42,420 nucleotides of DNA from Microcaldota archaeon (GCA_028866905.1 JAGWHI010000006.1:1-42420); one strand, 5' to 3'. Shown: positions 22,595 through 38,429, numbered from the stretch's first letter. The notes: generated by a model from the letters alone, not told the origin. Numbers and translations are program-made.

Positions 22595-25402
22595 ATGGTT
22601 GGTAGCAAGCCCAGCGGTCGCAAGGGACAGATCGCCCTTGAATTCATGATCGTATACTCGTTCATCATAATGGTCTTCATAGTGCTCTTCGCGCTCGTGG
22701 TCTCGCAGAGGGGCACTACGCTGAACATACAGGAGCAGGCGAGCCTCCAGCTCGTTGCCCAGAACATAGCTACGGCCATAACCACGGCCGCCACGGCTGG
22801 GAATGGATACTCCGGATCCGTACCTATCGCGGGCAGCATATCGGGGATCCCCTACAACCTTACGATATCGACATCCGGGGTGGTAGTCACGTCGATGAAG
22901 ATAGGGCGCCAGATAGTAACCGAGCACGCGTTCAGCGGCATTGGCAACCTGACAATAAGCGGAACCCCTGTGCTAAGCGCGAACGGGATAACCCTATACC
23001 TTGTCCCGGTTTACACCGGAAGCATAACCGTCGCAAACTCTAAGGGGCAGGTGTTCGTGAACCAGCCGGCCGCGTCGGCGCTCCCGCTTCCCGAAAGCCT
23101 TGCCGTAACGCAGACCGGCAGCGTAAAGGGTGCGGTGTTCTCTTCTGCGCAGAACAGCATGATAACTGCACAGACAGCCAACGTCCCAATAGCTACTGGC
23201 GGCGAGTCCATAACGGGATGGTTCTACCTTAATGCGTTTCCGCCTGGGTCGTCTTCAGTATTCCCGCTTTTCTCCCAGACGGGGGGCGGAGGGATAGGCG
23301 TCCTGGTCGCTACCACCCAGTCGACGCCTCCGCACGAGTTGGTATTAAACATTACAGCGGTCGGATCTAACACAAAAGCTTATATCCCGACTAACGTTAT
23401 AGCGAAGAACTGGTATATGTTCCTCGTGACATATGTCCCGTCTAGCACCACAACATTCTGCATCTACTCAAACCCAACACCGACATGCACTAACATGTTG
23501 GCTATATCTGGGCCATCGACGGTAAACGCAATACAGATAGGCTCGATGATTTACTCGGGATCGCAGCAGTCGTTCAACGGCACGATACTCAATATCCAGA
23601 TGTACAACTCGACGCTTACTTCCAACCAGGCCAACCAGATATACGCCCAGGGTATTGGAGCGCAGCCGCTCCCAAATAGCGGTCTGGTCGGATGGTGGCC
23701 GCTCAATGGCAACGCCAACGACTACTCAGGCAAGGGCTCCAACGGATACTCGGCAAACGTAGTATACCAGAGCCTGTACCAGCTCCAGGCCCATGTTGCA
23801 GCTGGTACGGGAAGCAACGCCTACGGCGCGCTAGTCGGTGTCGTGGCCGGCAGGGGCCAGATAGGGCAGACCGGGAGATCCTCCGCGCAGTACGCAGGAC
23901 AGACAGGCAACCAATCTTTCATAATAGCTTCCAACTACAGCCTCGGGATTACCAACGCCACGATCAACGTATTCAACGGCAACCTATCCACTGTCGGCAA
24001 CGTGGTCGGGTGGTGGCCACTTGATGAAGGCTATGGGTCTAACACCTTCGACCTCAGCACCTTATACCACAACGGCTACTTCAGGAACGCGAGCTGGAGC
24101 GTTGCGAACAACCAGACAAACTTCGCCGCGGCAGCGCTGCCTGGCGATCCCACAGGCCAGACGTTCAACGCGATATACGACGGATACATAACGGTCAACA
24201 ACACCGATTCGCTTAACAACATCCCCAGGAACGGCAGCTTCACCGCTGTCGCCTGGGTATACTATACAGGGGCGCCATCTACGTTCCACTGCCAGGGCGT
24301 AATAGGCGACGAGGGGGGCTTCTCGCCGCTCGGCGCAGGCTTCCAGCTCGTCGGGTACGGCGGCAGCGCGAACAACTGCCAGGCGCTCTATGTCAACAAC
24401 ACTTCTGTACCGTGGCCCAGCGGCATGAGCTCCAACTCGTTCCCTGCTAACAGATGGGAGATGGTGACCGCGCAGTACAACGGGAACACAGGATTGGCAA
24501 ACATCTACCTCAACAACGCGATATACTCCACCAATTCGCTGCCTGCAGGGCTGTCGGTGGTCCAGAAGCGCCAGATATACATAGGCAGCGACGCCTGGAC
24601 TGGTTCAGGGCTTGACGGCTTCAACGGAATGATCACCAACGTGCAGCTCTACAGCGGGTTCCTCAGCCCGCAGCAGATAAACCAGATATACCAGGGAGGC
24701 ATAGGCGCGCCGCCGGTCAGCAACGCCGGGCTTGTCGGATGGTGGCAGCTCAACGGAAACGCCAACGACTCGTCTGTGCTCAAGAACTTCGGGGTCGCCA
24801 AGTACAATGTGGTATACACGAACTCGCAATACATAGTCAACGCCACGGGCTCAAGGCAGCTGGCTTTCTTCAACGGGACGACATCCAAGAGCTCCGTGTA
24901 TGCGGGCAACGTGCCGCAGATAGGCCCTTCAACGAACTGGACCGTCTCCTTCTGGATGTACCCGACGAACACCATGAAGTTCAGGAACGTGCTCGACATG
25001 AACTTCGTGCCTTCTGGCAACAACGCGGGCCCCAGGTTCGAGGAGTTCGGCAGCGCGCTGAACCTTACGGTTGGGACCAGCCAGGCCACGTTCAACATAT
25101 TCACCTACTCTAACTCGATAAAGCCCAATACGTGGTACCACGTGGTGGCGGTAAGGCAGGCCGGCAGCGCTGTCGGCTACCTGAACGGGGCGCAGGTGTT
25201 CAACAGGTCGAACTCGCTATGGCCGAGCTATTTCAGCAACGTCACGATAGGCAGGGGAGGCCAGAACGCGCTGACTAACTGGTTCTCGGGCTACATAACC
25301 AACGTGCAGGTGTACAGCAATTCGCTGACCGCGACGCAGGTCTACCAGCTCTACCAGCAGGGGCTTCCGCTCTACCAGAGGCTGAACGTATCACAGGGAT
25401 GA
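22595..25402 (+). CDS. Giant pilin-like protein with three LamG domains
   Basis: 935 residues. The N-terminus is an archaellin/pilin (class III) signal: basic leader, then R9-K10-G11 | Q12-IALEF with the +5 Glu and a hydrophobic helix (about 18-40), so prepilin peptidase should cut after G11 and the helix should pack into a filament core. Three concanavalin/LamG-like modules follow (about 200-370, 470-715 and 755-930). Each ends in NGTILNIQMYN/NVQLYS, then QxNQIYxxGIG, and usually a GWWPLNGNANDYSG linker. The surface region is rich in N-x-S/T sequons. LamG domains usually bind sugars or proteins, so an adhesive fibre subunit is inferred. It overlaps the next gene by ATGA. Confidence 0.83.
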   Translation: MVGSKPSGRKGQIALEFMIVYSFIIMVFIVLFALVVSQRGTTLNIQEQASLQLVAQNIATAITTAATAGNGYSGSVPIAGSISGIPYNLTISTSGVVVTSMKIGRQIVTEHAFSGIGNLTISGTPVLSANGITLYLVPVYTGSITVANSKGQVFVNQPAASALPLPESLAVTQTGSVKGAVFSSAQNSMITAQTANVPIATGGESITGWFYLNAFPPGSSSVFPLFSQTGGGGIGVLVATTQSTPPHELVLNITAVGSNTKAYIPTNVIAKNWYMFLVTYVPSSTTTFCIYSNPTPTCTNMLAISGPSTVNAIQIGSMIYSGSQQSFNGTILNIQMYNSTLTSNQANQIYAQGIGAQPLPNSGLVGWWPLNGNANDYSGKGSNGYSANVVYQSLYQLQAHVAAGTGSNAYGALVGVVAGRGQIGQTGRSSAQYAGQTGNQSFIIASNYSLGITNATINVFNGNLSTVGNVVGWWPLDEGYGSNTFDLSTLYHNGYFRNASWSVANNQTNFAAAALPGDPTGQTFNAIYDGYITVNNTDSLNNIPRNGSFTAVAWVYYTGAPSTFHCQGVIGDEGGFSPLGAGFQLVGYGGSANNCQALYVNNTSVPWPSGMSSNSFPANRWEMVTAQYNGNTGLANIYLNNAIYSTNSLPAGLSVVQKRQIYIGSDAWTGSGLDGFNGMITNVQLYSGFLSPQQINQIYQGGIGAPPVSNAGLVGWWQLNGNANDSSVLKNFGVAKYNVVYTNSQYIVNATGSRQLAFFNGTTSKSSVYAGNVPQIGPSTNWTVSFWMYPTNTMKFRNVLDMNFVPSGNNAGPRFEEFGSALNLTVGTSQATFNIFTYSNSIKPNTWYHVVAVRQAGSAVGYLNGAQVFNRSNSLWPSYFSNVTIGRGGQNALTNWFSGYITNVQVYSNSLTATQVYQLYQQGLPLYQRLNVSQG

Positions 25403-25941
25403 CAATGATGAGACTGCAATTCTGGAGCTTCGACATCATCTTCGCCGTGGTCATATTCAGCGTTGCGATAACCATACTTGCGTTCGCATGGTTCAACCTG
25501 AGCGGGCAGCTCGCGATAGTCAACGGCGGGGGCACGATAATACTCCAGATACAGGCGCAGGACGCGAAGCAGTCGGTGATGTCGCCGGGATATCCGGCCG
25601 CATGGCAGACCACCATAAACACCACCAACACGCTGACATGGGCAGGGGTCGTGGCCGGGATAACTACAGCCCCGAGCAACACCACCATATCCCCAGCAAA
25701 GCTGGCGGCTCTGGAGTCGCTGTCGAAATACAACTATCTGGCTTCGAAGCAGGTCGTGGGGGTATCGTACGACTATTACATAACGATAAGAGGCGGCCAG
25801 TTCAACATAAGCATAGGGGAGAACCCGAACCTCAACAAGGCGCTGACGACCGAGGTGAGGACCGCGAGCGGCTTCCTCAACGGGGTGCCTGTGACGGTCA
25901 AGGTGATGGTGTGGACCGGCACGTCGCTTGGAACGAGCTGA
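25399..25941 (+). CDS. Pilin-like minor subunit
   Basis: 180 residues. The N-terminal LQFWSFDIIFAVVIFSVAITILAFAW combines a short polar head, an Asp in the place of the pilin +5 acid, and one hydrophobic helix (about 10-30), a pattern common in archaeal pilin-like proteins. The rest looks like a small beta domain (DYYITIRGGQFNISIG, VPVTVKVMVW) with several N-x-T sequons. There is no LamG module, so this could be the filament's minor or tip pilin. It overlaps the upstream gene by 4 bases and is followed by the next after one base. Confidence 0.68.
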   Translation: MTMMRLQFWSFDIIFAVVIFSVAITILAFAWFNLSGQLAIVNGGGTIILQIQAQDAKQSVMSPGYPAAWQTTINTTNTLTWAGVVAGITTAPSNTTISPAKLAALESLSKYNYLASKQVVGVSYDYYITIRGGQFNISIGENPNLNKALTTEVRTASGFLNGVPVTVKVMVWTGTSLGTS

Positions 25942-25942
25942 T

Positions 25943-28147
25943 ATGATGGGCAACATGAAGGGATTCATATTCACTGTCGATGCGATCTTCTCGCTCGTGA
26001 TAGCCGGGGCAGCGGTTGCGATACTGCTATACCTGGTGCCTTATTCGCAATCGATATACCAGGCCCCTGCCGCCGAGGCCACAAGCCTGCTGCTCAACAT
26101 ACTGCAGAGCAACCTGCAGCAGGAGTACTATTCGGTCAACTACGCCACCTACGCGATAGACGCGTGGAACGGCAGGCAGTACCAGTGGCAGCAGTTCGGG
26201 CGCAGCCAATCCCTGTCATCGTCTGCGCCGATAGGGCCGAAGTCGCTCATGCTATCGTACACTTACAATGGGCCTGGCGCAACGTCTGCCCCAGTGGCAG
26301 GCTCAGGAGTGGTGGCGTTCGCCTCTGGCGCCTACCTGTACGCGCTCAACGCCACTACAGGGAAGCCTGTATACAACTACCCGGCAAGCTGCAAGTGCAC
26401 CTCTGCGGGCCAGCCGATAATATACGGCAGGGAGATAATCTACAGCAACTGGACCGCCTCGACAAACTACATAACAGCGCTCGACATATCCAACGGGTCA
26501 AGGGTAGTATGGAAGACCCTGACAAGCGCCGGCACAGGCCTAAGCGGGCCGTTGACCATGGCAGGCGGATACGTAGTCGCGCCTGGCTACTCCACATTCT
26601 ACCTGCTGAACCCTTACAACGGCACCATGGTGTCGAACGCGGTGATACCTGGATCCCTCTGGCCGATAACGCAGGTCGCGTATTCGAACGGCGAATATTT
26701 CATAGCGAGCACAAAGCTCGGCTCGCCGAATAAGCTCTTCGCCTACGGCCTTGCTGGCGGATCGCTGGCCCAGCTGTGGAGCAACACCCTTACATCCTCA
26801 GGCACCACTGGGCCGACGGTGTCGGGCAACATCGTTGCCGTGGGAAGCGGCAACACGCTCTACGCGTTCGGCCTGAACGGGACGCAGCTCTGGACGGCGG
26901 TCACCTCGAACCAGATAAAGGGGGTCGCCAGCGGATCCGGAGAGGTATTCGCCGAGACAGCCAACTCTATATACGGCTTCACCAACTCGGGGGTGCCGAT
27001 ATTCACCTACATCACCAGCGGGAACATATACAACGCCACGCCATCGATAGGAGGGGGTACGCTCTACACCCTGATAAACGGGTACTCGTACCAGGCGTTC
27101 AACATAACCGGCCAGAAGAGGCTGTGGATGTTCAACCTGTCGTACGTCCCGTCTTCGTGCAACTACCAGTGCTTCAACAACATAGCGCTGGCGTACGGCG
27201 ACGCGTACGTGACGAACGGGAACTACCTGTACGCATTCGGAGCGTGCCCTGCAGACCCTAACGCCAGCATAGCCGCGGACCTGGCGAGCCTTTACCTAAA
27301 CAAGGGCGGCGGCTGCGCCGACATGATACTCAACGCGACATACCAGTCGAGCAGGGCCGCGATGTTCGTGAACAGCACGTACGCCCCGGACCTGAAGATG
27401 ACCAACTTCAACGGCTACAATTCCAATGTCAACGCGTCGGAGCTGCCGGGGATGAACCAGCTCAACAACATAACAGTTGCCGCATGGGTCAAACTGACAT
27501 CCAATACAAGCGCCCTTGGAGAGGGCATACTCGCAGGGAACTCGTACGTCCTGAGGGTTGACAGGCAGTCGGAAGGCAGCAAGCTCTCCTGGTTCGTCTA
27601 TGTCAACAGCGCGATAGAGCCAAGGCTCAGCACCACAAAGCCGCTCAGGCTGAACACCTGGTATTTCGTCGCAGCGACTTACAACCAGAAGACCGGGGCT
27701 ATGGCAATATACGTGAACGGGACGCTCAACAACTCTGAGACGCGCGCGGGCACGCCGACACTCGGCTACATGCCAAACAACATAAGGATAGGGCTCGGCG
27801 ACGGCGGTAACTACTGGAACGGGACGATTGCGGACGTGCAGATATACAACACGTCGCTCTCAGCGCTGCAGATACAGCAGCTGTACGAGGGGGGCATAAC
27901 GGGCGCGCCTTTGCAGACGACTAAGCTTCGCGCGTGGTGGCCGCTTCTAGGCGACACCAACGACTACAGCGGTAACAACGACCCAGGGATCACTGCAGTT
28001 CCTGCAAACGTGCCTTTCGGCAGGCAGCAATACCTGCCGCTATCGCTGCAGAATTCCTATCAGGTGGGCAAGGGCTCGATCCCGCTTAACATCTATGTAA
28101 ACGGGACCTACAAGTTCTACAACGTTAGCGTGGTCACATGGAGATGA
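25943..28147 (+). CDS. Pilin-like protein with PQQ-like propeller and LamG domain
   Basis: 734 residues from ATG 25943 (ATG 25946 and 25955 are alternatives). The N-terminus MKGFIFTVDAIFSLVIAG is pilin-like: Lys-Gly, then a hydrophobic helix with an early Asp. Residues about 100-440 contain repeated blades typical of PQQ/WD-like propellers (VVAFASGAYLYALNATTGKPVYNY, GYVVAPGYSTFYLLNPYNGTMV, IVAVGSGNTLYAFGLNGTQLWT). A LamG module follows (about 488-655, ending VQIYNTSLSALQIQQLYEGGI), then a LRAWWPLLGDTNDYSG linker and a short tail. Putative Cys pairs (CKC; CNYQC) may form disulfides. The next gene overlaps its end by 10 bases. Confidence 0.78.
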   Translation: MMGNMKGFIFTVDAIFSLVIAGAAVAILLYLVPYSQSIYQAPAAEATSLLLNILQSNLQQEYYSVNYATYAIDAWNGRQYQWQQFGRSQSLSSSAPIGPKSLMLSYTYNGPGATSAPVAGSGVVAFASGAYLYALNATTGKPVYNYPASCKCTSAGQPIIYGREIIYSNWTASTNYITALDISNGSRVVWKTLTSAGTGLSGPLTMAGGYVVAPGYSTFYLLNPYNGTMVSNAVIPGSLWPITQVAYSNGEYFIASTKLGSPNKLFAYGLAGGSLAQLWSNTLTSSGTTGPTVSGNIVAVGSGNTLYAFGLNGTQLWTAVTSNQIKGVASGSGEVFAETANSIYGFTNSGVPIFTYITSGNIYNATPSIGGGTLYTLINGYSYQAFNITGQKRLWMFNLSYVPSSCNYQCFNNIALAYGDAYVTNGNYLYAFGACPADPNASIAADLASLYLNKGGGCADMILNATYQSSRAAMFVNSTYAPDLKMTNFNGYNSNVNASELPGMNQLNNITVAAWVKLTSNTSALGEGILAGNSYVLRVDRQSEGSKLSWFVYVNSAIEPRLSTTKPLRLNTWYFVAATYNQKTGAMAIYVNGTLNNSETRAGTPTLGYMPNNIRIGLGDGGNYWNGTIADVQIYNTSLSALQIQQLYEGGITGAPLQTTKLRAWWPLLGDTNDYSGNNDPGITAVPANVPFGRQQYLPLSLQNSYQVGKGSIPLNIYVNGTYKFYNVSVVTWR

Positions 28148-31100
28148 GGAAAAGGAACATGAAGGGGATACTTCTTACGCTGCTGACCGTAGTGCTTTTC
28201 GTGCTCATGGTTACTGAGCTGATAGCCTACGTGGTCGCGAACATCAACTACGGGAACCTGGTATCCCAATCCGTTTTCTCCGGAAGCGCGTCGGCGCAGG
28301 CGGAGTCGCTGTCCGCATCGATATCGTCTACCATGCACAGCGCCGTATCCTCTGCGCTATACGCCCTGACGGTATACGAGTCGAATGCCATGATGCGCAA
28401 CGCGAACTTCATAAACAGCAGCACCTACGCGCTCTCGTCGCTGATGCTGCAGGGCAACGTGTTCGGCACCAACATGTCGTCATACATAGGAGGGGGCAAC
28501 CTTGGCCTTCTCGTCACGGGGCAGAACGAGATCGGCACCTTCGCGCCATCCGTAGTGGAGAAGAGCGCGCTGGCTCACGGGATAAACCTCACGGTGTACA
28601 ACGGAACGCTTAGCATTTACCAGACGTCGCCATTCTCGGTCAACGCGACATTCAGCGGCGTGATAGCGGTGAACGCATCAGCGCAGCTGACAGCCACGCT
28701 GCCGATATCTTCGAGCGGATACGCTGCGCTCAACGGGACAACGGACCTCTCGAGCATACAGGCGGGATATCCTACCACGATAAAGACCCAGAACACCTAT
28801 CCATCCGCATCACTGGTTGGCGGCACTTTCGCGAACTATGGAAGCACAGGCCCGTATATGTTCGCCTACGGCCCTGCGATAGTGATAGGCGGGAGCCCCT
28901 CATGCTCCAACATACCGGCAGCATACCAGAACGCGAACTACATACTCGTTGCGAAGAGCTCGCTGAACATACCGGCCAGCTTGTGCGGCATGGCGGGCCT
29001 TGTCACTAACACGCCCAACTCGATAACCCCGCTAGCGCCTTACCTGGTGTACAACGCGCCTTCGGTATTCAATTCCATACAGAACGGGACTTCGCTGCTG
29101 CTCAGCGGCCCCTCGCTCGCGCTCTACAACGTATCCGGGATATCCGCTGCGATACAGAACGGCTACTATTACCCGTCGCCGTACACGCCATCGTACCTGC
29201 AGAGGATTCAGGGCACGACGTCGCAGGGATCGCCTTACGGGATGTTCTCCTTCGCCCCGCTCAACAGGCCGGTCGCGAAGTTCAACGGCGCGAACAGCGT
29301 AGTGATAATGAATGACCAGGCCATACTGGACTGGCCTACCAACTCGCTCACCATAGGCGCCTGGGTGTACTGGCCGCAGTCGGCGGTAAAGGAGATGTTG
29401 GTCAAGAACAACGCAGGGAACACTGGCCCGGGCTCCTACGAGCTCTTCCAGTCCAACCAGCACGTCGCTTTCAGGCTCTACAAGGGTGGTACGCCATACA
29501 CGCTTTTCAGCGCAAGGAACCTCTCGCTCAACAGCTGGCACCAGGTCTTCGGCGTGTACAACGGCAGCGTGATGAAGATATACATCGATGGAGTGCAGGA
29601 CTCCAACACCATGGCGCTCGCAGGACCCTACACCTCCGCAACAGGCGAGTTCACAATGGGGGCATACGGCAACCTGAATTACCCGTACAACGGGCTCATG
29701 TCCGACGTCCAGATATACTTCGCCAACCTTAGCGGGCAGCAGATAAGCCAGCTCTATCAGGGGGGGCTCAACGGCGCGCCGCTTACCGCGAATATCGTAG
29801 GCTGGTGGCCCCTCGCAGGTAGCACCGCGGATTACTACTCGTCAGTCCCGCTGACGCAGAGCTACGCGATGGCCGACAACATCATATACTCGCCGGCTGT
29901 GGGCTACGTTGCAGATCCGACGTCGCAGCGCCAGCTGGGCCAATCCGCATCGTATGCATCCACGTACATCGGAAACGCTATGGTGACATCGAACGGGGTG
30001 ATACTAGGGCTTACCAACACGCTGACCGTGTCGGTATGGGTGAACCTCAGACCCAATGCCCATGCGCAGGTGACGGCCAGGAACGGCCAGTTCTCGCTGC
30101 AGGATGTCTCTGGAGTATTCCGCGGCTGGATAAACGTAGGCAGCAGCTGGGTCAATGCGAACGTCCCGAGCACGTACGGCCAATGGACCAATTACATACT
30201 ATCTTACAACAGCCTGGCAAGTCAGGCCATAATATACAAGAACGGCGCGCCGTCCAATCCTATAACAGTGACTGGAACGCTGACATGGGGTGACGGCACA
30301 ACGCCGCAGTGCGAGCTACTTTACTTCGGGTCCTACTGCGCAGGCATAGCGAACGTCGTTGGCGGGTCAATATCGAACGTGCAGGTGTACAACAGGTCGG
30401 TGAACGCAATGCAGGCGGTGCAGCTCTACAGCTTGGGAATTAGCGGAGGTCCGCTGCCGAACATGGGCAACGTCGGATGGTGGCCGCTCAACAACAACAC
30501 GCTCGACTACTCACCTAAGCAGAACAACGGGGCTGCGACGAATGCTATATTCACGCCGATACCCAGCGACCCCACACCGGACGTGATCCAGGGCGTGCTC
30601 AACTGCGCCAACATAAACGCCTGCTCCAACCAGTCGGCGCAGCACCTCTACCTAGACACGCTCCCGCTCTCCAACGCCAACGGGGGCTATGCCAACGAGA
30701 CCGCCGCGCTCGGCCTCCAGAGGGCAGGCATACCTGACGCTCTCAACGTGACAGGGATAAACAGCCTTGCCTACTCCAATGTGGGCAGCTACTTCGGCAA
30801 CAACAACCCGATGAGCTTCTCTGCGTGGTACTACGCCACGGCCACATCTGGCGGGCCTATAGTCGGCCTTGCATCGAGCACGTCAAGCAGCGGATGGAAT
30901 TCGCCCGTGCTGAGCGCCTCCGGGCTGAATGTCTATGGATGGGTGTACGCTGGCAGCGGCAGCACCGCCATTTCGCACACGCTCGCCACATCGGGATGGC
31001 ACAACCTCGTCATAACCTACAACCCCGCCAGCGGAGGGACGCAGACATTCTACATAGACGGCTCTCTTATCGGCAGCAACACCGGCTCGTACTCTGGCTC

Positions 31101-31446
31101 CGGCGCGACCGACTATTGGACCACTTACGTTCCTGGAGTGGCGCACTCGAGCGGGGGCGGATACTTCCAGGGCATGATGTCAGACGTGCAGTTCTACAAC
31201 GTGACGCTTGGTGCTGGACAGGTACAGTCGCTATACCTTAATGACAGCATCCCGTCGATAGCCGCTAACCAGGTATTCCGCTGGGGACCCGGCTCGAGCA
31301 CCAGCAACCTGGCGAACCAGACACAGGACTCGGTACAGGGCGACGTCGCGTACTTCGCGACGGGCAACGCTATAGCAGGGGTGAACGCCTGCACTAACTC
31401 GAATGCCGTTACTGGGATATGCGGCGTATCGATAGTGCCGCCTTAG
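28138..31446 (+). CDS. Very large membrane-anchored protein with three LamG domains
   Basis: 1102 residues. A basic head (MRKRNMKG) precedes one hydrophobic helix (about 9-33); the acidic residue comes late (TELIAYV), so it is a weaker pilin signal. Residues about 34-370 are a Ser/Ala/Asn-rich stalk with many sequons. Three LamG modules follow, about 380-548 (SLTIGAWVYWP ... VQIYFANLSGQQISQLYQGG), 607-767 (TLTVSVWVNLRP ... VQVYNRSVNAMQAVQLY) and 867-1035 (PMSFSAWYYATA ... VQFYNVTLGAGQVQSLY), the first two followed by GWWPL linkers. Scattered Cys pairs fit extracellular disulfides. Last gene of the plus-strand operon; it converges on the secretion operon three bases later. Confidence 0.78.
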   Translation: MEMRKRNMKGILLTLLTVVLFVLMVTELIAYVVANINYGNLVSQSVFSGSASAQAESLSASISSTMHSAVSSALYALTVYESNAMMRNANFINSSTYALSSLMLQGNVFGTNMSSYIGGGNLGLLVTGQNEIGTFAPSVVEKSALAHGINLTVYNGTLSIYQTSPFSVNATFSGVIAVNASAQLTATLPISSSGYAALNGTTDLSSIQAGYPTTIKTQNTYPSASLVGGTFANYGSTGPYMFAYGPAIVIGGSPSCSNIPAAYQNANYILVAKSSLNIPASLCGMAGLVTNTPNSITPLAPYLVYNAPSVFNSIQNGTSLLLSGPSLALYNVSGISAAIQNGYYYPSPYTPSYLQRIQGTTSQGSPYGMFSFAPLNRPVAKFNGANSVVIMNDQAILDWPTNSLTIGAWVYWPQSAVKEMLVKNNAGNTGPGSYELFQSNQHVAFRLYKGGTPYTLFSARNLSLNSWHQVFGVYNGSVMKIYIDGVQDSNTMALAGPYTSATGEFTMGAYGNLNYPYNGLMSDVQIYFANLSGQQISQLYQGGLNGAPLTANIVGWWPLAGSTADYYSSVPLTQSYAMADNIIYSPAVGYVADPTSQRQLGQSASYASTYIGNAMVTSNGVILGLTNTLTVSVWVNLRPNAHAQVTARNGQFSLQDVSGVFRGWINVGSSWVNANVPSTYGQWTNYILSYNSLASQAIIYKNGAPSNPITVTGTLTWGDGTTPQCELLYFGSYCAGIANVVGGSISNVQVYNRSVNAMQAVQLYSLGISGGPLPNMGNVGWWPLNNNTLDYSPKQNNGAATNAIFTPIPSDPTPDVIQGVLNCANINACSNQSAQHLYLDTLPLSNANGGYANETAALGLQRAGIPDALNVTGINSLAYSNVGSYFGNNNPMSFSAWYYATATSGGPIVGLASSTSSSGWNSPVLSASGLNVYGWVYAGSGSTAISHTLATSGWHNLVITYNPASGGTQTFYIDGSLIGSNTGSYSGSGATDYWTTYVPGVAHSSGGGYFQGMMSDVQFYNVTLGAGQVQSLYLNDSIPSIAANQVFRWGPGSSTSNLANQTQDSVQGDVAYFATGNAIAGVNACTNSNAVTGICGVSIVPP

Positions 31447-31449
31447 CGA

Positions 31450-31869
31450 CTAGCCCTTGTAAAGGAGGCCGAGTATGCTTCCGATTACGCCAAGGAGAAA
31501 GCCCATCAGGAATCCGCCTCCGTAGATGAAGCTGGCCAGGGAGAAAACTAATGAGAAAATCGACAGTGTCTTCATCCTCTTGCCCCCAAGCTTCAGCATG
31601 GATACGCCGACGCCAATGACACCGAGCCCGAGCACCACGCCTATCCCGAGCAGTATCGATGTGGCAAGGCTTATCTGGTTTAACTGCGGCCTCAGAAAGG
31701 ATATCCCGCCTGAGGCAGTCTGGTTGTGAGTGGCAGACTGTATCCCGTTGAAGATACTATTCGTTATGTTGTTGTAGGCGTACGTTATGTACGCGCTGTT
31801 GATTGCTATCAGGAGCCCTCCAACGATCAGCAATGCGGATATCAGGACAAGCTGCGAGCGCTTGGCCAT
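31450..31869 (-). CDS. Small membrane protein of the secretion operon
   Basis: 139 residues; no family recognised. Four hydrophobic segments are visible: 8-27, 66-92 (ILLGIGVVLGLGVIGVGVSML), 99-118 and 119-137 (MGFLLGVIGSILGLLY). Between the first two lies an extracytoplasmic loop with two N-x-S/T sequons. It is the last gene of the minus-strand pilus operon, 7 bases after the FlaJ/TadC-like gene. A role in anchoring or gating the platform is a guess from position only. Confidence 0.6.
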   Translation of the reverse strand: MAKRSQLVLISALLIVGGLLIAINSAYITYAYNNITNSIFNGIQSATHNQTASGGISFLRPQLNQISLATSILLGIGVVLGLGVIGVGVSMLKLGGKRMKTLSIFSLVFSLASFIYGGGFLMGFLLGVIGSILGLLYKG

Positions 31870-31876
31870 GCGACCA

Positions 31877-32902
31877 CTATATGGAGGCTGCGCCTGTGCT
31901 ACCGCCTATTCCCGACAGCATCAGCGACACTATATCCCCGACGACCACGAATATGACGAGGCCTACGACTATGAATATCGGGAGCCACCTGAGCCCCTTG
32001 ACCGCAGATCCTGACGATATTGCGGACATGATCAGGCTGGCGAACCCTGTTATTATTATGATCGCCACTATGGAGAACGAGCTGTAGGTCTGGGCGAACC
32101 CTGCTGGCGGCGGGTTGGGCTTGAGGAAGGATATGCCCGTTGACGGAAGGCCGGCCCCGCCGTTGGCGGCCTTGATCCCCTGCCATACCGTATCGGTTAT
32201 CGTGATCATCTGGTTGGTCAGCCCGTACAGCAGCGGCGACGCTATAAGGCCGGCGAAGGCTATGAATATGCTGTACATGAAGAGCTGGCCGGCAACCTCC
32301 TTCTGTATGAGCTGCTGGTTCCTGAGGTCCTTGGATATCTGCTCCAGCAGGTCGGCCATGGCGCCCCCGTACCTGACCGCCTCGAGCATCATTCGCACCG
32401 AGTGGTTGAACTGGTACGACCTGTACTTCTTGGTGAGCTGGTGCATCGAACTCTCGAAGGTCTCGCCGCTGAACACGCGCCTGGACATCTCCTTTATGTC
32501 CTCGCTGAAGAACTTGAACTCTGGCCTCGCTGCCAGCAGCATAGCCCTGTCGAGCGCTATGCCGCTCCTGAGGTTTGCCGATGCGATCTGGTAGTACTCA
32601 GGCAGTATGGTCTCGAGCGCGCTCTTCCTCCTCTCGATCTCGTACTCTATGAACATGTAGATGACGCCCACGAGGAGCGCTGCTAGCGCTATGCCCACTA
32701 TTACCGCAAGTATCGGGTTGAGGAAGAACTTCAGCGAGAGGAGCAGCGGCACGACCAGGAGTATCGCCACGACCCCCATCAGCGCGCGCTCCACGAGCGT
32801 CTCTATGTTTACCTTCATTCCTGCGAGGTCGAGCTCGTTGGACAGCCAGAGTATGAACGGCCTTGGAAGATATCTTTCGAAGCTTATTGTTTGGCGCGCC
32901 AT
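31877..32902 (-). CDS. Type II/IV secretion platform protein (FlaJ/TadC-like, T2SSF domain)
   Basis: 341 residues. It has paired membrane segments near 45-90, a cytoplasmic T2SSF helical domain (YYQIASANLRSGIALDRAMLLAAR, EMSRRVFSGETFESSMHQL, MMLEAVRYGGAMADLLEQISKDL), then further membrane segments (about 200-220, 272-295 and 305-330). This inner-membrane platform works with the ATPase to extract pilins from the membrane into the filament. Four bases separate it from the upstream, larger T2SSF protein, so the system has two platform subunits, as in Tad-type machines (TadB/TadC). Confidence 0.88.
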   Translation of the reverse strand: MARQTISFERYLPRPFILWLSNELDLAGMKVNIETLVERALMGVVAILLVVPLLLSLKFFLNPILAVIVGIALAALLVGVIYMFIEYEIERRKSALETILPEYYQIASANLRSGIALDRAMLLAARPEFKFFSEDIKEMSRRVFSGETFESSMHQLTKKYRSYQFNHSVRMMLEAVRYGGAMADLLEQISKDLRNQQLIQKEVAGQLFMYSIFIAFAGLIASPLLYGLTNQMITITDTVWQGIKAANGGAGLPSTGISFLKPNPPPAGFAQTYSSFSIVAIIIITGFASLIMSAISSGSAVKGLRWLPIFIVVGLVIFVVVGDIVSLMLSGIGGSTGAASI

Positions 32903-32906
32903 GGGA

Positions 32907-34889
32907 TCACATCGAGTAAGACGGCCTGGAGTTCTGTATGAGCACCAGGAACATCACCTGAAGGAATATTATGCCTACTACCGCGAACTCCAGCACTGTC
33001 GCGTTCACCTGGAATATGGCTATGAAGGTCGTAAGGATGGTGAGCACCGCTATACCCATGCTCGGGAGTATGACCCCGAAGAGCATGTAGAACATCGCTA
33101 TGGCGTTGAGCTTCTGGCCGTAACGCCTCAGCTCTATTATGCGCTCCTGCGAGAGCTGGTCGATCACGCTCTGCAGCGCAGACACCACGTCGGCGCCCGC
33201 CTTGATGCTGACCGAGGCCTGGAGCATGATCCTCCTGAACGAGTCGCTCTGGGTCTGGGCTATCGTAAGGTCGAGCGCCTCCTCGAGCGGCGTACCGAGC
33301 TGCACCTTCTCCACTATCTTGGCGAACTCCTTGCTTGCCTCGCCGTAGCCGGTGCTGACCGAGGTTATCGCGTTGAAGAGCGGCATGCCGGACCTCAGCG
33401 ATATGATCATGTCCCTTGACGCGAAGAGTATGTCGCGCTCTATGTTCTTTGTCGATACCTTGGTCCTGTGTTCCGGATAGCTGAGGAAGTTGGTGAGCGC
33501 CATCTGGAAGACTGCGAAGGCTATCACGGCCCCGAACACAACGCCCAGCACGGGGTTCTGGCCGGTGTTGACGAACAGCAGTATTATCACGATGCCGATC
33601 ACAGCGGCGAGCATCGCCGATATTATTATCATGCGCTCGACGAAGTCGTACAGGCTGGTTGCTATCTTCTGCTCCTTGAGCACCTGCTCGAGCCCCTTCC
33701 TCTTGTTGCCTATGCCCTCGACATACAGGCGCCACGCGCTGGGCTTGCCGTACGCGCCTGGCCTTGCGGCACCAGGCTGCTGCGGAGCTGCAGGCCTCTG
33801 TTGCTGGGCAGACGGCATCAACGTCGGGGTAGCAGGTCTGGGCTGCTGCACTTGCTGTGGCTGAACAGGCTTTGGAGCCGGCTTCTGGAAGAGGTGGAAT
33901 TCTGGCCTTTGCGGTCTGGCAGCGGCTGCCATCTGCTGGGGCGCAGGCTTCGGCACAGTCACCGGCTTAGGCTGCTGGGGCTTGGCCCCGAACAGGTGGA
34001 ATCCCTCACCCGCAGGCTTCTGAACCGGCGCAGGCTTAGGCTGCGGATACGCTATCGTCATGGGTTTGGGCTGCGCGGGCTTTGCGCCGAACAGATGGAA
34101 GCCTTCGCCATGCGGCTTTGCGGGTACAGGAGCAGGTTTCGGAAGGGGCGCCTGCGCAACTGCAGTAGGCGGCTTTGGCTGCGCCGGCTTGGAACCGAAA
34201 ATGTGAATCCCTTGGCCGGCCTGCTGTACTGGTTTCGCTACGGGAATTGCAGGGGCAGGGACCTGCGGCGCGGGTTTCGGCTGCGCCACCTTGGGCTTGG
34301 GCGCGAAGATCCCGCCCAGGCCCTTGCTGGGCTTTGGCTGTAGCTCTATAGTCTTCCCTTCTATGGTTATCGTGCGCTTCTTCTCGAACAGGTGGATGCC
34401 AGAAGGCTTCGGCTGCTGTGCCGGCTGAGTTGCAGGCATAGATGGCTTAGGCTGCTGCGGCTTTGCGCCGAACAGGTGGAAGCCCTCTCCAGCAGGCTTC
34501 GGTGCTGCGGGCTTCTGCTGGACCGGCTGGGCAGCGACAGCGGGTTTTGGCTGCTGCGCTGGCGGAGCCTTGGGCTTAGGCGAGAAGATCCCGCCAAGGC
34601 CCTTGCCCGGCTTCGGCTGAAGCGTTATAGTCCTGTTGTCGACAGTTATAGTGCGCGTGCTCGGGCCGCCGAACAGGCCAGGCGCTTGCCTCTGCTGCAC
34701 CGGCTTTTCCGGAGGCTTCGGGGGCGCGGGAGCGGCTGGCGGCTGCACCTGCTTCTGTGGCTGCTGGGCTGGCTGCTTGGCGGATGGCTTCCTCGAGAAG
34801 AGGCCGCCTATGCCCTTGGGCTTTGGCTGGAGCTCTATCGTCTTGCCCTCGACGGTTATCGTACGCTTCTTCTTGTCGAACAGCATCAA
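32907..34889 (-). CDS. Secretion platform protein with long repeat-bearing Pro/Gln-rich N-terminal tail
   Basis: 660 residues. Residues about 390-660 are a standard FlaJ/TadB-like protein: paired membrane helices, T2SSF helices (ASRDMIISLRSGMPLFNAI, EFAKIVEKVQLGTPLEEAL, ASVSIKAGADVVSALQSVIDQL) and two C-terminal membrane helices. The first 385 residues are a cytoplasmic, disordered-looking Pro/Gln/Ala/Lys tail with two ordered repeat types. Type A (TITVEGKTIELQPKP plus GLGGIF) occurs at 3-35, 72-106 and 167-200. Type B (GFHLFGAKPQQPKP) occurs at 136, 164, 227, 263, 296 and 330. I know no such tail on a platform protein. Overlaps the upstream gene by 4 bases. Confidence 0.85.
   Translation of the reverse strand: MMLFDKKKRTITVEGKTIELQPKPKGIGGLFSRKPSAKQPAQQPQKQVQPPAAPAPPKPPEKPVQQRQAPGLFGGPSTRTITVDNRTITLQPKPGKGLGGIFSPKPKAPPAQQPKPAVAAQPVQQKPAAPKPAGEGFHLFGAKPQQPKPSMPATQPAQQPKPSGIHLFEKKRTITIEGKTIELQPKPSKGLGGIFAPKPKVAQPKPAPQVPAPAIPVAKPVQQAGQGIHIFGSKPAQPKPPTAVAQAPLPKPAPVPAKPHGEGFHLFGAKPAQPKPMTIAYPQPKPAPVQKPAGEGFHLFGAKPQQPKPVTVPKPAPQQMAAAARPQRPEFHLFQKPAPKPVQPQQVQQPRPATPTLMPSAQQQRPAAPQQPGAARPGAYGKPSAWRLYVEGIGNKRKGLEQVLKEQKIATSLYDFVERMIIISAMLAAVIGIVIILLFVNTGQNPVLGVVFGAVIAFAVFQMALTNFLSYPEHRTKVSTKNIERDILFASRDMIISLRSGMPLFNAITSVSTGYGEASKEFAKIVEKVQLGTPLEEALDLTIAQTQSDSFRRIMLQASVSIKAGADVVSALQSVIDQLSQERIIELRRYGQKLNAIAMFYMLFGVILPSMGIAVLTILTTFIAIFQVNATVLEFAVVGIIFLQVMFLVLIQNSRPSYSM
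33870..34883 (-). repeat. Coding repeats (types A and B) in the platform-protein tail
   Basis: Three copies of a roughly 33-codon unit (about 34785-34883, 34572-34676, 34290-34391) and six copies of a shorter HLFGAKP unit between about 33870 and 34484, all in frame on the minus strand. The copies are similar but not identical, so they are maintained rather than newly duplicated. Confidence 0.75.
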
Positions 34890-35605
34890 TTCACTCTGCT
34901 CCCGAGCATTCCGAGCGCGGTCTGGAGCCTGCTATCCCTAAGCTGCACAAGCGCCGGGTCTGCGCCCTTCGCCTGCGATGGTGCGACCTGGCTGAGCCCG
35001 AGAAGCTCCTCGCGGACTATACTGGCCTGCTCCGTATTAAATATGTTCTCGTTGAGCCCCTCGATTATCCGCTCGAGCTCAGATATCTGGTCCTGCATCG
35101 GCAGGTTCGGGAGCACTAGGCCGCTGGTGTCTATGCGCCTCTCTGTCATGCGCCTGACCGTGTTCGTCACCCTGGGCAGCTGGGTGCCGAGCTGCTTCAC
35201 CTCCCGCGCGAGCGCTGAGCCTAGCTCCTCGCCTATCATGGAGCCTATCCTTGCCGACGCAGTAGCGGTGGCCTCTGCGCCCTTGACCAGCGCGCCGCCC
35301 AGCGCTGCTGCCTCCTTGCCGGTCGCCTTGGCCATCCTCTGGGCCGGCTGGATCATCGCGCGCGCCTCAGCACCAGGCTGCGGCGCGGCCTCAGCCCTCA
35401 TCTCCTCGCGCCTCGGCCTTACTGCCTCCATGCCCTCAAGCAGGCCGGCGAGCTTCGAGTACGGCTCGGGCCTCTCCGGCCCCTCGACTGAGAAGGTCTC
35501 GGTTATGTCTATGTATTCCGCGGACTCGGCCTTCTTGCTGCCCAGCCTGGATATCTGGCCGAGCGCCTCTTCGTAGCCCTCATCCATCTTAACCATCCGA
35601 ATCAA
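34886..35605 (-). CDS. Hypothetical Ala-rich helical protein of the secretion operon
   Basis: 239 residues from ATG 35605; ATG 35596 and 35587 (MDEGYEEALG) are in-frame alternatives. No family recognised. It is soluble: an acidic N-terminal 50 residues, a variable Pro/Ala/Arg linker (70-95), a long Ala-rich helix (about 95-140, KEAAALGGALVKGAEATATASARIG as a core), and a C-terminal helical bundle (QISELERIIEGLNENIFN, then LRDSRLQTALGMLGSRV). It overlaps the ATPase stop by 4 bases and the platform gene start by 4, so it is translationally coupled to both and likely acts with them. Confidence 0.65.
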   Translation of the reverse strand: MIRMVKMDEGYEEALGQISRLGSKKAESAEYIDITETFSVEGPERPEPYSKLAGLLEGMEAVRPRREEMRAEAAPQPGAEARAMIQPAQRMAKATGKEAAALGGALVKGAEATATASARIGSMIGEELGSALAREVKQLGTQLPRVTNTVRRMTERRIDTSGLVLPNLPMQDQISELERIIEGLNENIFNTEQASIVREELLGLSQVAPSQAKGADPALVQLRDSRLQTALGMLGSRVN

Positions 35606-37110
35606 AACATGCCCTTCGAGTACGGGACGTTGTCGTTGACAATCTGGACAACCTTGTCCCTGTGCTTGTAGTAGTTCGCCACCACCAGGCCGGCGTTATC
35701 CACGTCCAGAACGTTGTTCTTGACCATCCAGTCGAGTATCTTCGTCTTCTCTTCGACGTTCTCGAATATCTCCTTCCTTGTCATCCCGCTGTAGAGCGAG
35801 ATTGTGTCCGCCATCCTCGTCATCTCGCCGATCTGCATGAACGCGTCGGTCGCGGAGTTCCACCTGTAGATCGCGTTGGCGTCGCCGCTTCGCACCACCT
35901 CTCCGAACTCCAGCACGCGCCTTATGTTCCTTGTCCTGTGCCTGAAGTTGACCACTATGCCCCCTATCGCGTTCATCATTATCTTCGGCACGTTGATCGG
36001 CGGGTTCGTCATACGGGTTATCACGTCCTGCACGTTATCCGCGTGAAGCGTGCCGTACACCGCGTGGCCGGTGTGTATGGCCTCGAAGAGCGTCTCCGCG
36101 TCCTTCTGCACTCGCACCTCTCCGATCACCACTATGTCGGGTCGCTGCCTGAGCGCGTTGATCATCAGGTTGTAGAGCGACACCTCTCCCTTGCCCTCTG
36201 GGTTGGGCTCCCTGGATAGCATGCTCACCCACTGCACGAAGCCGGGCAGGGTGAGCTCCCTCGTCTCCTCTACGGACACCACCCTCCTGTTTGCTGGGAA
36301 GAATATGCTGCACGAGTTGAGGAAGCTGGTCTTTCCGCTGGCGGTTCCACCTGCTATCAGTATGCTGACCTCGCTCTGTATGCTCAGCCAGACCAGCGCG
36401 GCCATCTGCGGGCTTATCGTGTTGTTCTTAACCATGGCGGGCATCGTCCACGGGTTCTTCGCGAACTTCCTTATCGTGATGGTGTTGCCGACCTGCGACA
36501 CCGGGAACAGGGTGGCGTTGACCCTAGACCCGTCCGGCAGCTCCGCGTCCATGAGCGGCGCCAGGTTGTTGATCTCTCGGCCTATGCGCCTGCCTATGTG
36601 CTCCGACACGTCGTATATCTGTTCCTCGGACGCTGGCTTTATGTTGGTCTTGCACCAGCCGTACATCTTGTGGAAGACCCAGACCGGCTCCTTAGACCCG
36701 TTGACGGCGATCTCCTCAAGCATCTCGTCGGCGAGCGGCACCTCGAGGTCGCCGTAGCCCAGCATCATGTTGATTATGTACGCGGTCAGCAGCACCTTTG
36801 TCTGCTGGCTCGTCCCTGGGAGCACCTTGTCGATAAGTATGTTGCTGGCGTCTATGTACTTCGCGTTGGTCTCCTGGAGGTAGTCCGAGTTCTGCAGCCT
36901 CGACGGGTCTATCGGCACCATGCTGATGAGGTCCGGCCTGAGCGACAGGAGCAGCAGCTTTGTCGCGGTGCTTATGCCGGGGAATGTGACCTGGTACGTA
37001 GGCACGAACTCCGTGCTCTCGTATATCTGTATGTCGACCTGCATCCCGTTTGCGTTGAGCGAGTACTCCGCCAGCGTCCTTTTGCCCTCGTCTCTCTGTT
37101 GGTCCATCAA
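35602..37110 (-). CDS. Type II/IV secretion ATPase (FlaI/TadA/GspE-like)
   Basis: 502 residues. Hexameric ATPase that powers pilin assembly. An N-terminal domain (about 1-170) precedes the RecA-like core: Walker A AGGTASGKTS (about 251-260), Asp box VSVEETRELTLPG, Walker B DIVVIGEVR, and His box GHAVYGTLHADN. Family segments ILIDKVLPGT and INNLAPLMDAELPDGSRVNATL are also present. The C-terminal 90 residues are helical. It is the second gene of the minus-strand operon, 10 bases after the wHTH/coiled-coil gene. No retraction ATPase (PilT-like) is seen. Confidence 0.94.
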   Translation of the reverse strand: MMDQQRDEGKRTLAEYSLNANGMQVDIQIYESTEFVPTYQVTFPGISTATKLLLLSLRPDLISMVPIDPSRLQNSDYLQETNAKYIDASNILIDKVLPGTSQQTKVLLTAYIINMMLGYGDLEVPLADEMLEEIAVNGSKEPVWVFHKMYGWCKTNIKPASEEQIYDVSEHIGRRIGREINNLAPLMDAELPDGSRVNATLFPVSQVGNTITIRKFAKNPWTMPAMVKNNTISPQMAALVWLSIQSEVSILIAGGTASGKTSFLNSCSIFFPANRRVVSVEETRELTLPGFVQWVSMLSREPNPEGKGEVSLYNLMINALRQRPDIVVIGEVRVQKDAETLFEAIHTGHAVYGTLHADNVQDVITRMTNPPINVPKIMMNAIGGIVVNFRHRTRNIRRVLEFGEVVRSGDANAIYRWNSATDAFMQIGEMTRMADTISLYSGMTRKEIFENVEEKTKILDWMVKNNVLDVDNAGLVVANYYKHRDKVVQIVNDNVPYSKGMF

Positions 37111-37120
37111 AATCCTGCCA

Positions 37121-38389
37121 TCACTTTTGGTCGCCGCCTATCCTTTTCGCGACGTTCTCGAGGTCGGACTTCAGCTTCGAGCTGCGGTTCTTGGTGCTCC
37201 TCGCCTTAGCCTCGAGCTCCTCGACGCGCTGCTCCTTCTTCTCGGCAGCCGACACGGCCATCGCCCTTATCAGCTTGGCCTCCTCGGCCGACTTGTCCAC
37301 CTCGGCCTTCAGCGCGGTTATGTCCTTCTGGATCCTCTCTATCTCGGCCTTGGACTCGTTTATCTGATCGTAGAGCTTCGACGCCTCGCCCATGCCCTCC
37401 TTGAACGCGGATATCTGCTCCATCAGCGCCTTGGCCTGCGCTGATATGCGCTCCACGTTGGCGCCTATCTCGTCGTGCGTCTTCTGGTACCGGTTGTTGA
37501 AGTCCGTGCGCGCGCTCTCCAGGCTGACCTTGAAGCCCTGCTTCTCCTTGTCGAACTGGCGTATCTGGTCGTGGAGCGTAGCTGCGCTCTTCATAAGGTC
37601 GCGCATCTCGTTGACCTCGCCGCGTATCTCGCCCGCGTAGCCCTTGAGCTTCTCGGACATCTCCTTCCTCGACGAATCGACCATGCCGTTGAGCTCGGAC
37701 ACGTGCGAGCTTATGTCCTTCTTGAGGGCGTCGATCCTGCGGTCCTTCTCCCTCGAGAGGTTCTCTATCTCCTTTTCCAGCTGGTTGACCTTGTCTATCG
37801 AATCCTTTATTCGCGCGTCCCTGCCGCTGTCCACGCCTGCGGCCTTGCTAGGGTCGAGCGCGTCTATCTTCGCAGTGAGCTCGTTGACGCGCTTGTTGAC
37901 GGTCTCGTAGAGGCCGTCTATCCCGCCCTTGGACTGCTCCGCTGTGGCGATCTGCTTCTGCAGCGCGTCGGTCATGCGGTTGAGCTCCGTCATCTTCACG
38001 CGCATGTCGGGCATGCGCTGCTGGTAGAGCTTGTCCACGCTCTGGGTGCTCGCCTTTACGCGGTCGAGCAGCTCGGACAGTTTCTCAAGCGACAGCGATT
38101 GCGCCGCAAGGTCGGACTCCACTATGTCGAGCTTGGTGGTTGCCTTGCTCACCATGGTCTTCGCCTGCTCCGGGGTGAGCGACGTTGGCTCTATGTACAT
38201 GCGCCCCATCTCGTAGACTACGCGCACCATGTTGCCCTGCTCCAGCACCTTCGCCCATGACTCCACCACCTTGGGATCTGCGCCCAGAGCCGCGGCTGTT
38301 GCGCTCAGCTCCATTCGCCCCTTAGCCTTGACGAGCTCCATCAACGAGTCGATCGTGGTCTTCGTCTCCTCTACCGGTTCGGCCGCCAT
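37121..38389 (-). CDS. N-terminal winged-helix, long coiled-coil protein of the secretion operon
   Basis: 422 residues from ATG 38389, chosen because the TATA box at 38422-38429 puts the RNA start near 38400, after the in-frame ATG at 38410. Residues about 10-65 form a winged helix (SLMELVKAKGRMELSATAAALG, VVESWAKVLEQGNMVRVVY), a module often found with archaeal pilus operons. The rest is almost continuous coiled coil (about 80-400; e.g. IDKVNQLEKEIENLSREKDR). No membrane segment. It may be a cytoplasmic scaffold for the platform and ATPase or a regulator. It is first in the operon, and its promoter carries a perfect inverted repeat. Confidence 0.8.
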   Translation of the reverse strand: MAAEPVEETKTTIDSLMELVKAKGRMELSATAAALGADPKVVESWAKVLEQGNMVRVVYEMGRMYIEPTSLTPEQAKTMVSKATTKLDIVESDLAAQSLSLEKLSELLDRVKASTQSVDKLYQQRMPDMRVKMTELNRMTDALQKQIATAEQSKGGIDGLYETVNKRVNELTAKIDALDPSKAAGVDSGRDARIKDSIDKVNQLEKEIENLSREKDRRIDALKKDISSHVSELNGMVDSSRKEMSEKLKGYAGEIRGEVNEMRDLMKSAATLHDQIRQFDKEKQGFKVSLESARTDFNNRYQKTHDEIGANVERISAQAKALMEQISAFKEGMGEASKLYDQINESKAEIERIQKDITALKAEVDKSAEEAKLIRAMAVSAAEKKEQRVEELEAKARSTKNRSSKLKSDLENVAKRIGGDQK

Positions 38390-38404
38390 GGCACCCACTT
38401 TTAC

Positions 38405-38429
38405 AAACATGTAAATACATGTTTAAATA
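38405..38429 (-). promoter_or_regulatory. Operon promoter with inverted repeat over TATA box
   Basis: The perfect 8-bp inverted repeat AAACATGT-AAAT-ACATGTTT (38405-38424) overlaps the TATA box, which reads TATTTAAA on the minus strand (38422-38429), and runs toward the predicted RNA start. A bound protein would exclude TBP or polymerase. Confidence 0.6.

Follow-up and report, generated by a model that had tools for sequence, protein, structure and literature searches.

Whether four pilin-like proteins, three of them extended by lectin-type and propeller modules, make up the body of an archaeal type IV pilus (T4P) or a specialized complex at its tip is the question raised by a locus in a 42,420-nucleotide stretch of DNA (the window; GCA_028866905.1, JAGWHI010000006.1:1-42420) from a Microcaldota archaeon. 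The window is contig 4 of a draft genome of 886 kb that is 90% complete. A preliminary description had proposed that the products of the four genes, here termed A to D, could build a fiber whose subunits display binding domains; in that form, with the four proteins as the fiber body, the proposal was not supported. A minor-pilin complex acting at the tip or in priming fits better than a fiber body, because the four genes form a fixed cassette, their N-termini are differentiated, protein D lacks the acidic residue for packing, the heads are very large, and module-poor quartets occur elsewhere. We consider it probable that A to D form a multi-lectin minor-pilin complex that starts and caps a type IV pilus, with binding modules at the tip.

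Four genes with prepilin-type N-termini

Analysis of open reading frames (ORFs) in the window placed genes A to D on the + strand between positions 22595 and 31446, with neighboring ORFs overlapping or abutting one another. Gene A (22595..25402; 935 amino acids [aa]), a putative modular minor pilin, begins with the class III signal KG/QIALEF (slash, predicted cleavage site) with Glu5, and its pilin part is followed by three LamG domains identified with Pfam (23168-23629, 24179-24682, and 24887-25342). Gene B (25399..25941; 180 aa; RL/QFWSFD with Asp6) would be a plain minor pilin with no added module and is the most conserved of the four. The ORF of gene C opens at TTG 25928; its likely start is ATG 25943, giving a putative modular minor pilin of 739 aa that ends at 28147 and carries KG/FIFTVD with Asp6. 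Pfam and AlphaFold2 together lay out this protein as a propeller (approximately 26228-27247), a second pilin helix region, a LamG domain (27413-27877), and a terminal pilin-like hairpin, YNVSVVTWR. Gene D (28138..31446; 1102 aa; KG/ILLTLL), whose start overlaps the end of gene C by 10 nucleotides (nt) in an arrangement retained in most relatives, encodes a third putative modular pilin, with no acidic residue at positions 1 to 12. In D, a predicted 75-residue helix and three-stranded sheet lead into a swivelling-type alpha/beta domain (approximately 28750-29175), followed by three LamG domains in Pfam (29287-29748, 29980-30408, and 30793-31227). All seven Laminin_G_3 matches (three in A, one in C, three in D) exceeded the curated cut-off, at 37 to 93 bits versus 27.6, and these scores place the domains in the Laminin_G_3/ConA-like lectin superfamily. 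The propeller of gene C matched PQQ_2/BamB (E = 9e-15), in agreement with the seven LamG domains and one PQQ-like propeller that had been assigned to the three large proteins beforehand.

Mature N-termini were compared in approximately 53 to 63 distinct relatives per gene, taking the residue that follows the basic residue as position -1. In all four genes, the basic residue and cleavage motif are followed by a hydrophobic helix, and this arrangement is conserved across relatives. Glu5 was present in 44 of 53 A proteins, some of the exceptions reflecting protein truncation or an automatic misassignment of the start, and Asp6 in 59 of 62 B and 56 of 56 C proteins. In gene D, positions 1 to 12 of the mature protein held no acidic residue in 61 of 63 relatives. 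The ORFs, the motifs as first quoted, and their conservation thus bear out the earlier claim of four overlapping genes with pilin-like N-termini. The accompanying claim that class III signals are established stands for the conserved motifs of all four genes, with two small corrections: among the profile searches, which confirmed the LamG domains, the class III signal model stayed below the Pfam cut-off for gene A, and gene B has Leu, not Gly or Ala, at -1. A search of the genome with the exact class III pattern gave eight matches, gene A included, versus none for a reversed control pattern. This control and the conservation in relatives rule out chance motifs. A prepilin-peptidase-like protein may also be encoded in the genome, judging from a Peptidase_A24 match on contig 18 (G000:C18:35709-36011; E = 1.4e-4, below the cut-off) in which Asp and GEGD motifs were picked out by eye. 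Separately, residues 14 to 101 of gene A gave a weak, sub-threshold match to DUF7266; gene A and the gene B homologues of two other loci (L180 and L182) weakly matched DUF7266 and DUF7287, and DUF7266 also matched in the control genomes of Haloferax volcanii and Methanosarcina acetivorans, a hint of a minor-pilin set that may not be confined to Micrarchaeota. Because these matches are sub-threshold, the link to the haloarchaeal families was not adopted and is kept as a lead.

Structure prediction, one of the checks proposed at the outset, yielded N-terminal helices in both C and D. The AlphaFold2 model of C (42 sequences; pLDDT 85, pTM 0.85) comprises a membrane helix (residues 17-36), helices at 47-84, propeller strands at 109-437, helices at 448-471, the LamG domain at 500-640, and the terminal hairpin at 713-738. 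Residues 1 to 385 of D (pLDDT 86) were predicted as a single helix (8-82), an antiparallel sheet (150-197), and then the alpha/beta domain. In a Foldseek search with D(1-385), the swivelling-domain protein AF_0055 came out best (E = 2.8e-4), presumably through the alpha/beta domain, which lies at residues 205 to 346 between the pilin part and the first LamG domain and resembles it; a pilin or GspK match for D was dropped. Propeller matches dominated the Foldseek results for C (tetrathionate hydrolase, BamB, and YxaL), mostly at 15 to 19% identity, and these matches do not indicate an enzymatic role for C.

The convergent machinery operon and its synteny

The matching ATPase and two platform proteins that the preliminary description placed in the convergent neighbor operon were recovered there, as one T2SSE and two T2SSF domains above cut-off. 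On the - strand, platform protein 2 (31877..32902; T2SSF, TadC/FlaJ-like) and platform protein 1 (32907..34889; T2SSF in its C-terminal part, with a weak match to the ArlJ/FlaJ model) adjoin a conserved 239-aa protein (34886..35605), regularly positioned between platform protein 1 and the ATPase. The assembly ATPase itself (35602..37110; T2SSE of the FlaI/GspE type, 115 bits versus a cut-off of 24.9) adjoins a coiled-coil protein conserved within the operon (37121..38410). The closest solved structures to the ATPase were A. fulgidus GspE (2oap) and FlaI (4ii7). In a genome search, the only T2SSF domains were the two of this operon, and two other T2SSE proteins were found, on contigs 14 and 19. 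The FlaI/GspE-type ATPase, the TadC/FlaJ-type platform proteins, and subunits with prepilin (class III) signals are among the features of an archaeal T4P. An archaellum was ruled out, since the archaellum-specific models remained far below cut-off (264 of 550 bits for the FlaI equivalog and 22.9 of 550 for ArlJ). No MinD or EppA gene was recognized in the window locus.

The ATPase also bears on whether the locus might encode a bindosome-like surface assembly, in which a pilus-type ATPase gathers binding proteins with class III signals for sugar scavenging and no long filament is formed. The ATPase does match the BasE model, and LamG/ConA-type domains often bind carbohydrate. However, BasE was not the best match (138 bits versus 264 for FlaI, both below cut-off), a Pfam profile search found no solute-binding fold among A to D, and two platform proteins with a differentiated pilin quartet resemble a filament system, so that we regard such an assembly as quite unlikely.

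Genome contigs were scanned with an alignment of platform protein 2, giving 80 loci, nearly all labeled Candidatus Micrarchaeota, among them one in the complete Ca. Micrarchaeum sp. A_DKE genome; we infer the order name Micrarchaeales from the records of these loci. Since they were selected by the platform protein only, they provide a fair test of synteny. The recurring order in 32 relatives' loci and in the 80 named loci is A-B-C-D, tail to tail with platform protein 2, platform protein 1, the 239-aa protein, the ATPase, and the coiled-coil protein. Of the 80 loci, 55 extend at least 8.5 kb beyond the platform protein; the whole block (D-C-B-A) was present in 38 of these and parts of it in others, and 7 had none at that place, one of which (G006/L076) carries the block elsewhere on that contig, at a distance of approximately 45 kb. 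The synteny check suggested beforehand was therefore positive, and a peculiarity of a single metagenome-assembled genome is ruled out by the order-wide recurrence. Block and machinery are distributed over two families of Micrarchaeales, the window's relatives in the first including a genome that we take to be Mia14 (G008), and some members of the second have B only, or B and A, adjoining the machinery. A phylum-wide search found gene B in 222 and platform protein 2 in 260 of 295 genomes. Relatives that keep the genes without the machinery had been named in advance as contrary evidence; instead, platform protein 2 was present in 106 of the 114 genomes with gene B in the two families (counted by eye), and the 8 others are incomplete drafts. 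In roughly two of every three among 47 loci, the frames of C and D share exactly 10 nt, which suggests that their translation may be coupled.

Platform protein 1 is 660 aa in the window versus mostly 310 to 490 aa elsewhere, and its extra N-terminal half is proline-rich and repetitive, with repeats such as RTITVEGKTIELQPKP and GEGFHLFGAKP. A small membrane protein (31450..31869, - strand; 139 aa; weak DUF6114 match) is probably not a core part, because it was not found at this place in relatives' loci.

Constant pilin parts and exchangeable modules

Among relatives' proteins, LamG was found in 39 of 39 A, 40 of 42 C, and 43 of 46 D proteins, and PQQ_2 in 32 of 42 C proteins. The first module slot of gene C (n = 63) was occupied by a propeller in 45 proteins, by LamG in 16, including those of A_DKE and presumed Mia14, and by nothing in 2; the second slot held LamG in nearly all 63. 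Across these changes, the N-terminal helix of C and its C-terminal strand, YNVSVVxW, stayed constant. Mean pairwise identity was 43% for the C helix, 39% for the C tail, and 44% for the A pilin part, compared with 22 to 27% for LamG domains; overall, the N-terminal pilin parts averaged approximately 39 to 56%, above the LamG modules of the same proteins. The better conservation of the pilin parts is as expected if the chassis is fixed while the binding heads diversify. In a single profile comparison, the middle-plus-tail segment of gene C aligned in register but weakly with small C pilins (E = 0.015), and it is therefore mainly the module swapping that argues for insertion of modules within gene C.

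These patterns can be set against a DNA uptake or secretion (pseudopilus) machine, in which the large modules would be structural or would dock to the S-layer and would not be adhesins. Minor-pilin sets also prime type II secretion systems (T2SS) and Com pili, and the profile of gene A matches an S-layer domain-containing protein (PDB 4qvs; E = 2e-15). Unlike a structural part, however, the LamG modules have diverged further than the pilin parts, and propellers can take their place. No DNA uptake gene was identified at the locus, in analyses that included no search aimed at such genes. We judge this explanation very unlikely.

Other families of the class have quartets of small members, with A to D of 133, 178, 134, and 272 aa at L182 and of 142, 196, 134, and 298 aa at L183. 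At L180, D has one LamG domain and the other three proteins are small. The L180 and L182 quartets adjoin ATPase/platform genes like those of the window, L180 in the identical convergent layout. Within the window's own family, G024 has LamG in A, a C protein of 168 aa, and a D protein of 277 aa with no Pfam match. Judging from these mostly unadorned quartets, an older set of minor pilins appears either to have gained the modules or to have lost them, and the modules look grafted. Gene B can also become large, possibly by fusion: in some second-family members, it reads as a protein of 1453 to 1464 aa (L131 13286-17647; L135 16204-20598), and open frames of 1459 and 1474 aa occur in G176 and G168. 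Some genomes (L112 and L118, from the same isolate, and G224) carry both the platform protein and gene B in duplicate, next to simpler pilins.

Place of the quartet in the pilus

In the tip-complex interpretation, A, B, C, and D would be minor pilins of one archaeal T4P system, forming a heteromeric complex that initiates and caps the filament. Once their signals had been cleaved, they would be extruded via their N-terminal helices by the ATPase and two platform proteins of the convergent operon, and the major pilin would be encoded elsewhere in the genome. We place D outermost, like GspK in the HIJK complex, mainly because it has no acidic residue to pair with the N-terminus of a next subunit. 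The seven LamG domains and the propeller would be shown at the pilus tip, where they would bind glycan or glycoprotein ligands, whether on a partner cell, in a biofilm, or on cells of their own kind. Such a complex would explain the fixed quartet, the differentiated N-termini, the oversized heads, the module exchange, and the linkage to the machinery.

If the four large proteins instead formed the fiber, the binding domains would be displayed along its length. All four have pilin-type N-termini, and no small major pilin is found in the locus; a LamG-bearing major pilin is conceivable, given a separate 294-aa class III protein with LamG on contig 18 and tandem arrays of 286- to 299-aa proteins in G008. 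Yet A to D are single-copy and differentiated, in a fixed quartet; proteins of 730 to 1100 residues are difficult to pack on a helical fiber; D lacks the acid thought necessary for continued polymerization; and a quartet of small members exists elsewhere. We consider a fiber body unlikely.

Several points weigh against the tip complex. LamG domains are not always lectins. The class III signal model matched gene A weakly (E = 0.024), and the locus holds no major pilin, nor could one be assigned to this ATPase. Foldseek of D(1-385) gave no pilin structure and no similarity to GspH/I/J/K, so that the comparison with GspK is carried by the missing acid and the gene set. Furthermore, filaments at the contacts of A_DKE with its host touch but do not cross the micrarchaeal S-layer (PMC8975820); they may be host structures, and the reported lack of S-layer penetration calls for caution in equating them with this pilus.

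Among characterized systems, the tip complex comes closest to PilABC of Streptococcus sanguinis (PMC8179133, PMC9934059), which likewise combines class III pilins bearing a binding module, minor pilins from one operon, one subunit with no Glu5, and a proposed tip location; the ConA-like lectin module of PilC binds glycans (PMC9934059). PF13385 is listed among the common modules of bacterial modular pilins (PMC8179133, PMC9934059). In contrast to PilABC, the window set is archaeal and order-wide, three of its four minor pilins are modular with 3+1+3 LamG domains and a propeller, and its signals are of the archaeal class III type, not the bacterial N_methyl motif. The modules of gene C also appear inserted between pilin-head segments, whereas those of PilABC are C-terminal additions. 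By the IPR012902 definition of bacterial modular pilins, A to D are not members, as a profile search at E up to 0.1 found no N_methyl match, although the extra non-T4P domain is present and they would work like such pilins. As in the HIJK complexes of T2SS and T4P, four minor pilins are encoded together and one member (K; here D) lacks an acid near its N-terminus; the K subunit, which comes from a four-pilin operon and lacks Glu5, caps the tip (PMC9934059). Unlike in HIJK, no sequence or structural match was detected, and D has a swivelling-type alpha/beta domain as its addition where GspK has its alpha domain. PilY1/PilC, a bacterial T4P tip adhesin, is similar in that a minor-pilin complex displays a propeller; it is not a pilin and belongs to another propeller family, whereas the PQQ/BamB-type propeller of the window is fused within a pilin.

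Clade 1 archaeal T4P, as defined by Makarova et al. 2016 (PMC4858521), share one ATPase, two TadC-like platform proteins, and several minor pilins with the window, and their large DUF2341 proteins are termed predicted tip adhesins; DUF2341 was found in 5 of 46 D proteins of relatives. Golyshina et al. 2017 (PMC5498576) placed the Mia14 locus MIA14_0170-0177 in this clade and described LamG proteins as expanded in Mia14, some of them linked to T4P loci. By position and gene count, this locus is very probably one recovered here (L177). In the available sections of these accounts, the pilin-LamG fusion, the four-member set, and the N-terminal differentiation go unmentioned. From our analysis, some of the large proteins predicted to be adhesins in archaeal T4P loci could be pilins in their own right.

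In the part of the literature that was searchable, we did not find pilin-LamG fusion in archaea described in the form seen here, a conserved set of four members whose modules can be exchanged, nor any report of filament formation or adhesion by the A to D proteins; on LamG with archaeal pilins, there was nothing beyond Mia14 and general remarks on DPANN. LamG-type modules are described on bacterial pilins (Raynaud et al. 2021), and the locus would extend the modular-pilin idea to archaea, with a whole minor-pilin set in place of one or two subunits. The question of which molecules attach Micrarchaeota (ARMAN group) to Thermoplasmatales hosts dates from the imaging of pili-like links (PMC4110969, PMC8975820). 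As a means of holding partner cells, the locus is a testable candidate in this tiny archaeon, a relative of the host-dependent Micrarchaeota. Since the Micrarchaeota in culture grow together with Thermoplasmatales hosts (PMC8975820, PMC5498576), host-cell binding by A to D is plausible. A more tentative reading, less likely than not, is that Micrarchaeales remodeled an ancient archaeal four-pilin complex for priming as a docking head with many lectins, in which exchangeable module slots lie within the pilin head itself, and that this pilus tip is their main organelle for recognizing and holding hosts. Both cultured Ca. Micrarchaeum A_DKE (L102) and the genome that is very probably Mia14 (L177) contain the locus, and their named, expressible proteins could be tested against host surface glycans; the host of A_DKE displays galactose and mannose (PMC8975820).

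Further pilin genes were observed outside the locus. The separate 294-aa class III pilin on contig 18 of the window's genome (48649; L005, L193) carries one LamG domain (47967-48419; RAQSAMEYLMTYGWAI). At least eight genes similar to it, which encode proteins of 286 to 299 aa and several of which are nearly identical, lie in tandem in G008, the genome that is probably Mia14 (L068 6305-19280). These and the contig 18 protein may be major or variable LamG pilins. On contig 14 (286-6495; L167), a second T4P-like locus combines an ATPase and two membrane proteins with several small pilin-like proteins that lack LamG (KRAQGSLEY, KAQMSFEF, and MKAIIYSLDAML). On contig 19 (4854-12000; L168), a third ATPase adjoins several large pilins of the SAxExLMTYSWAL type, 269 to 523 aa in length.

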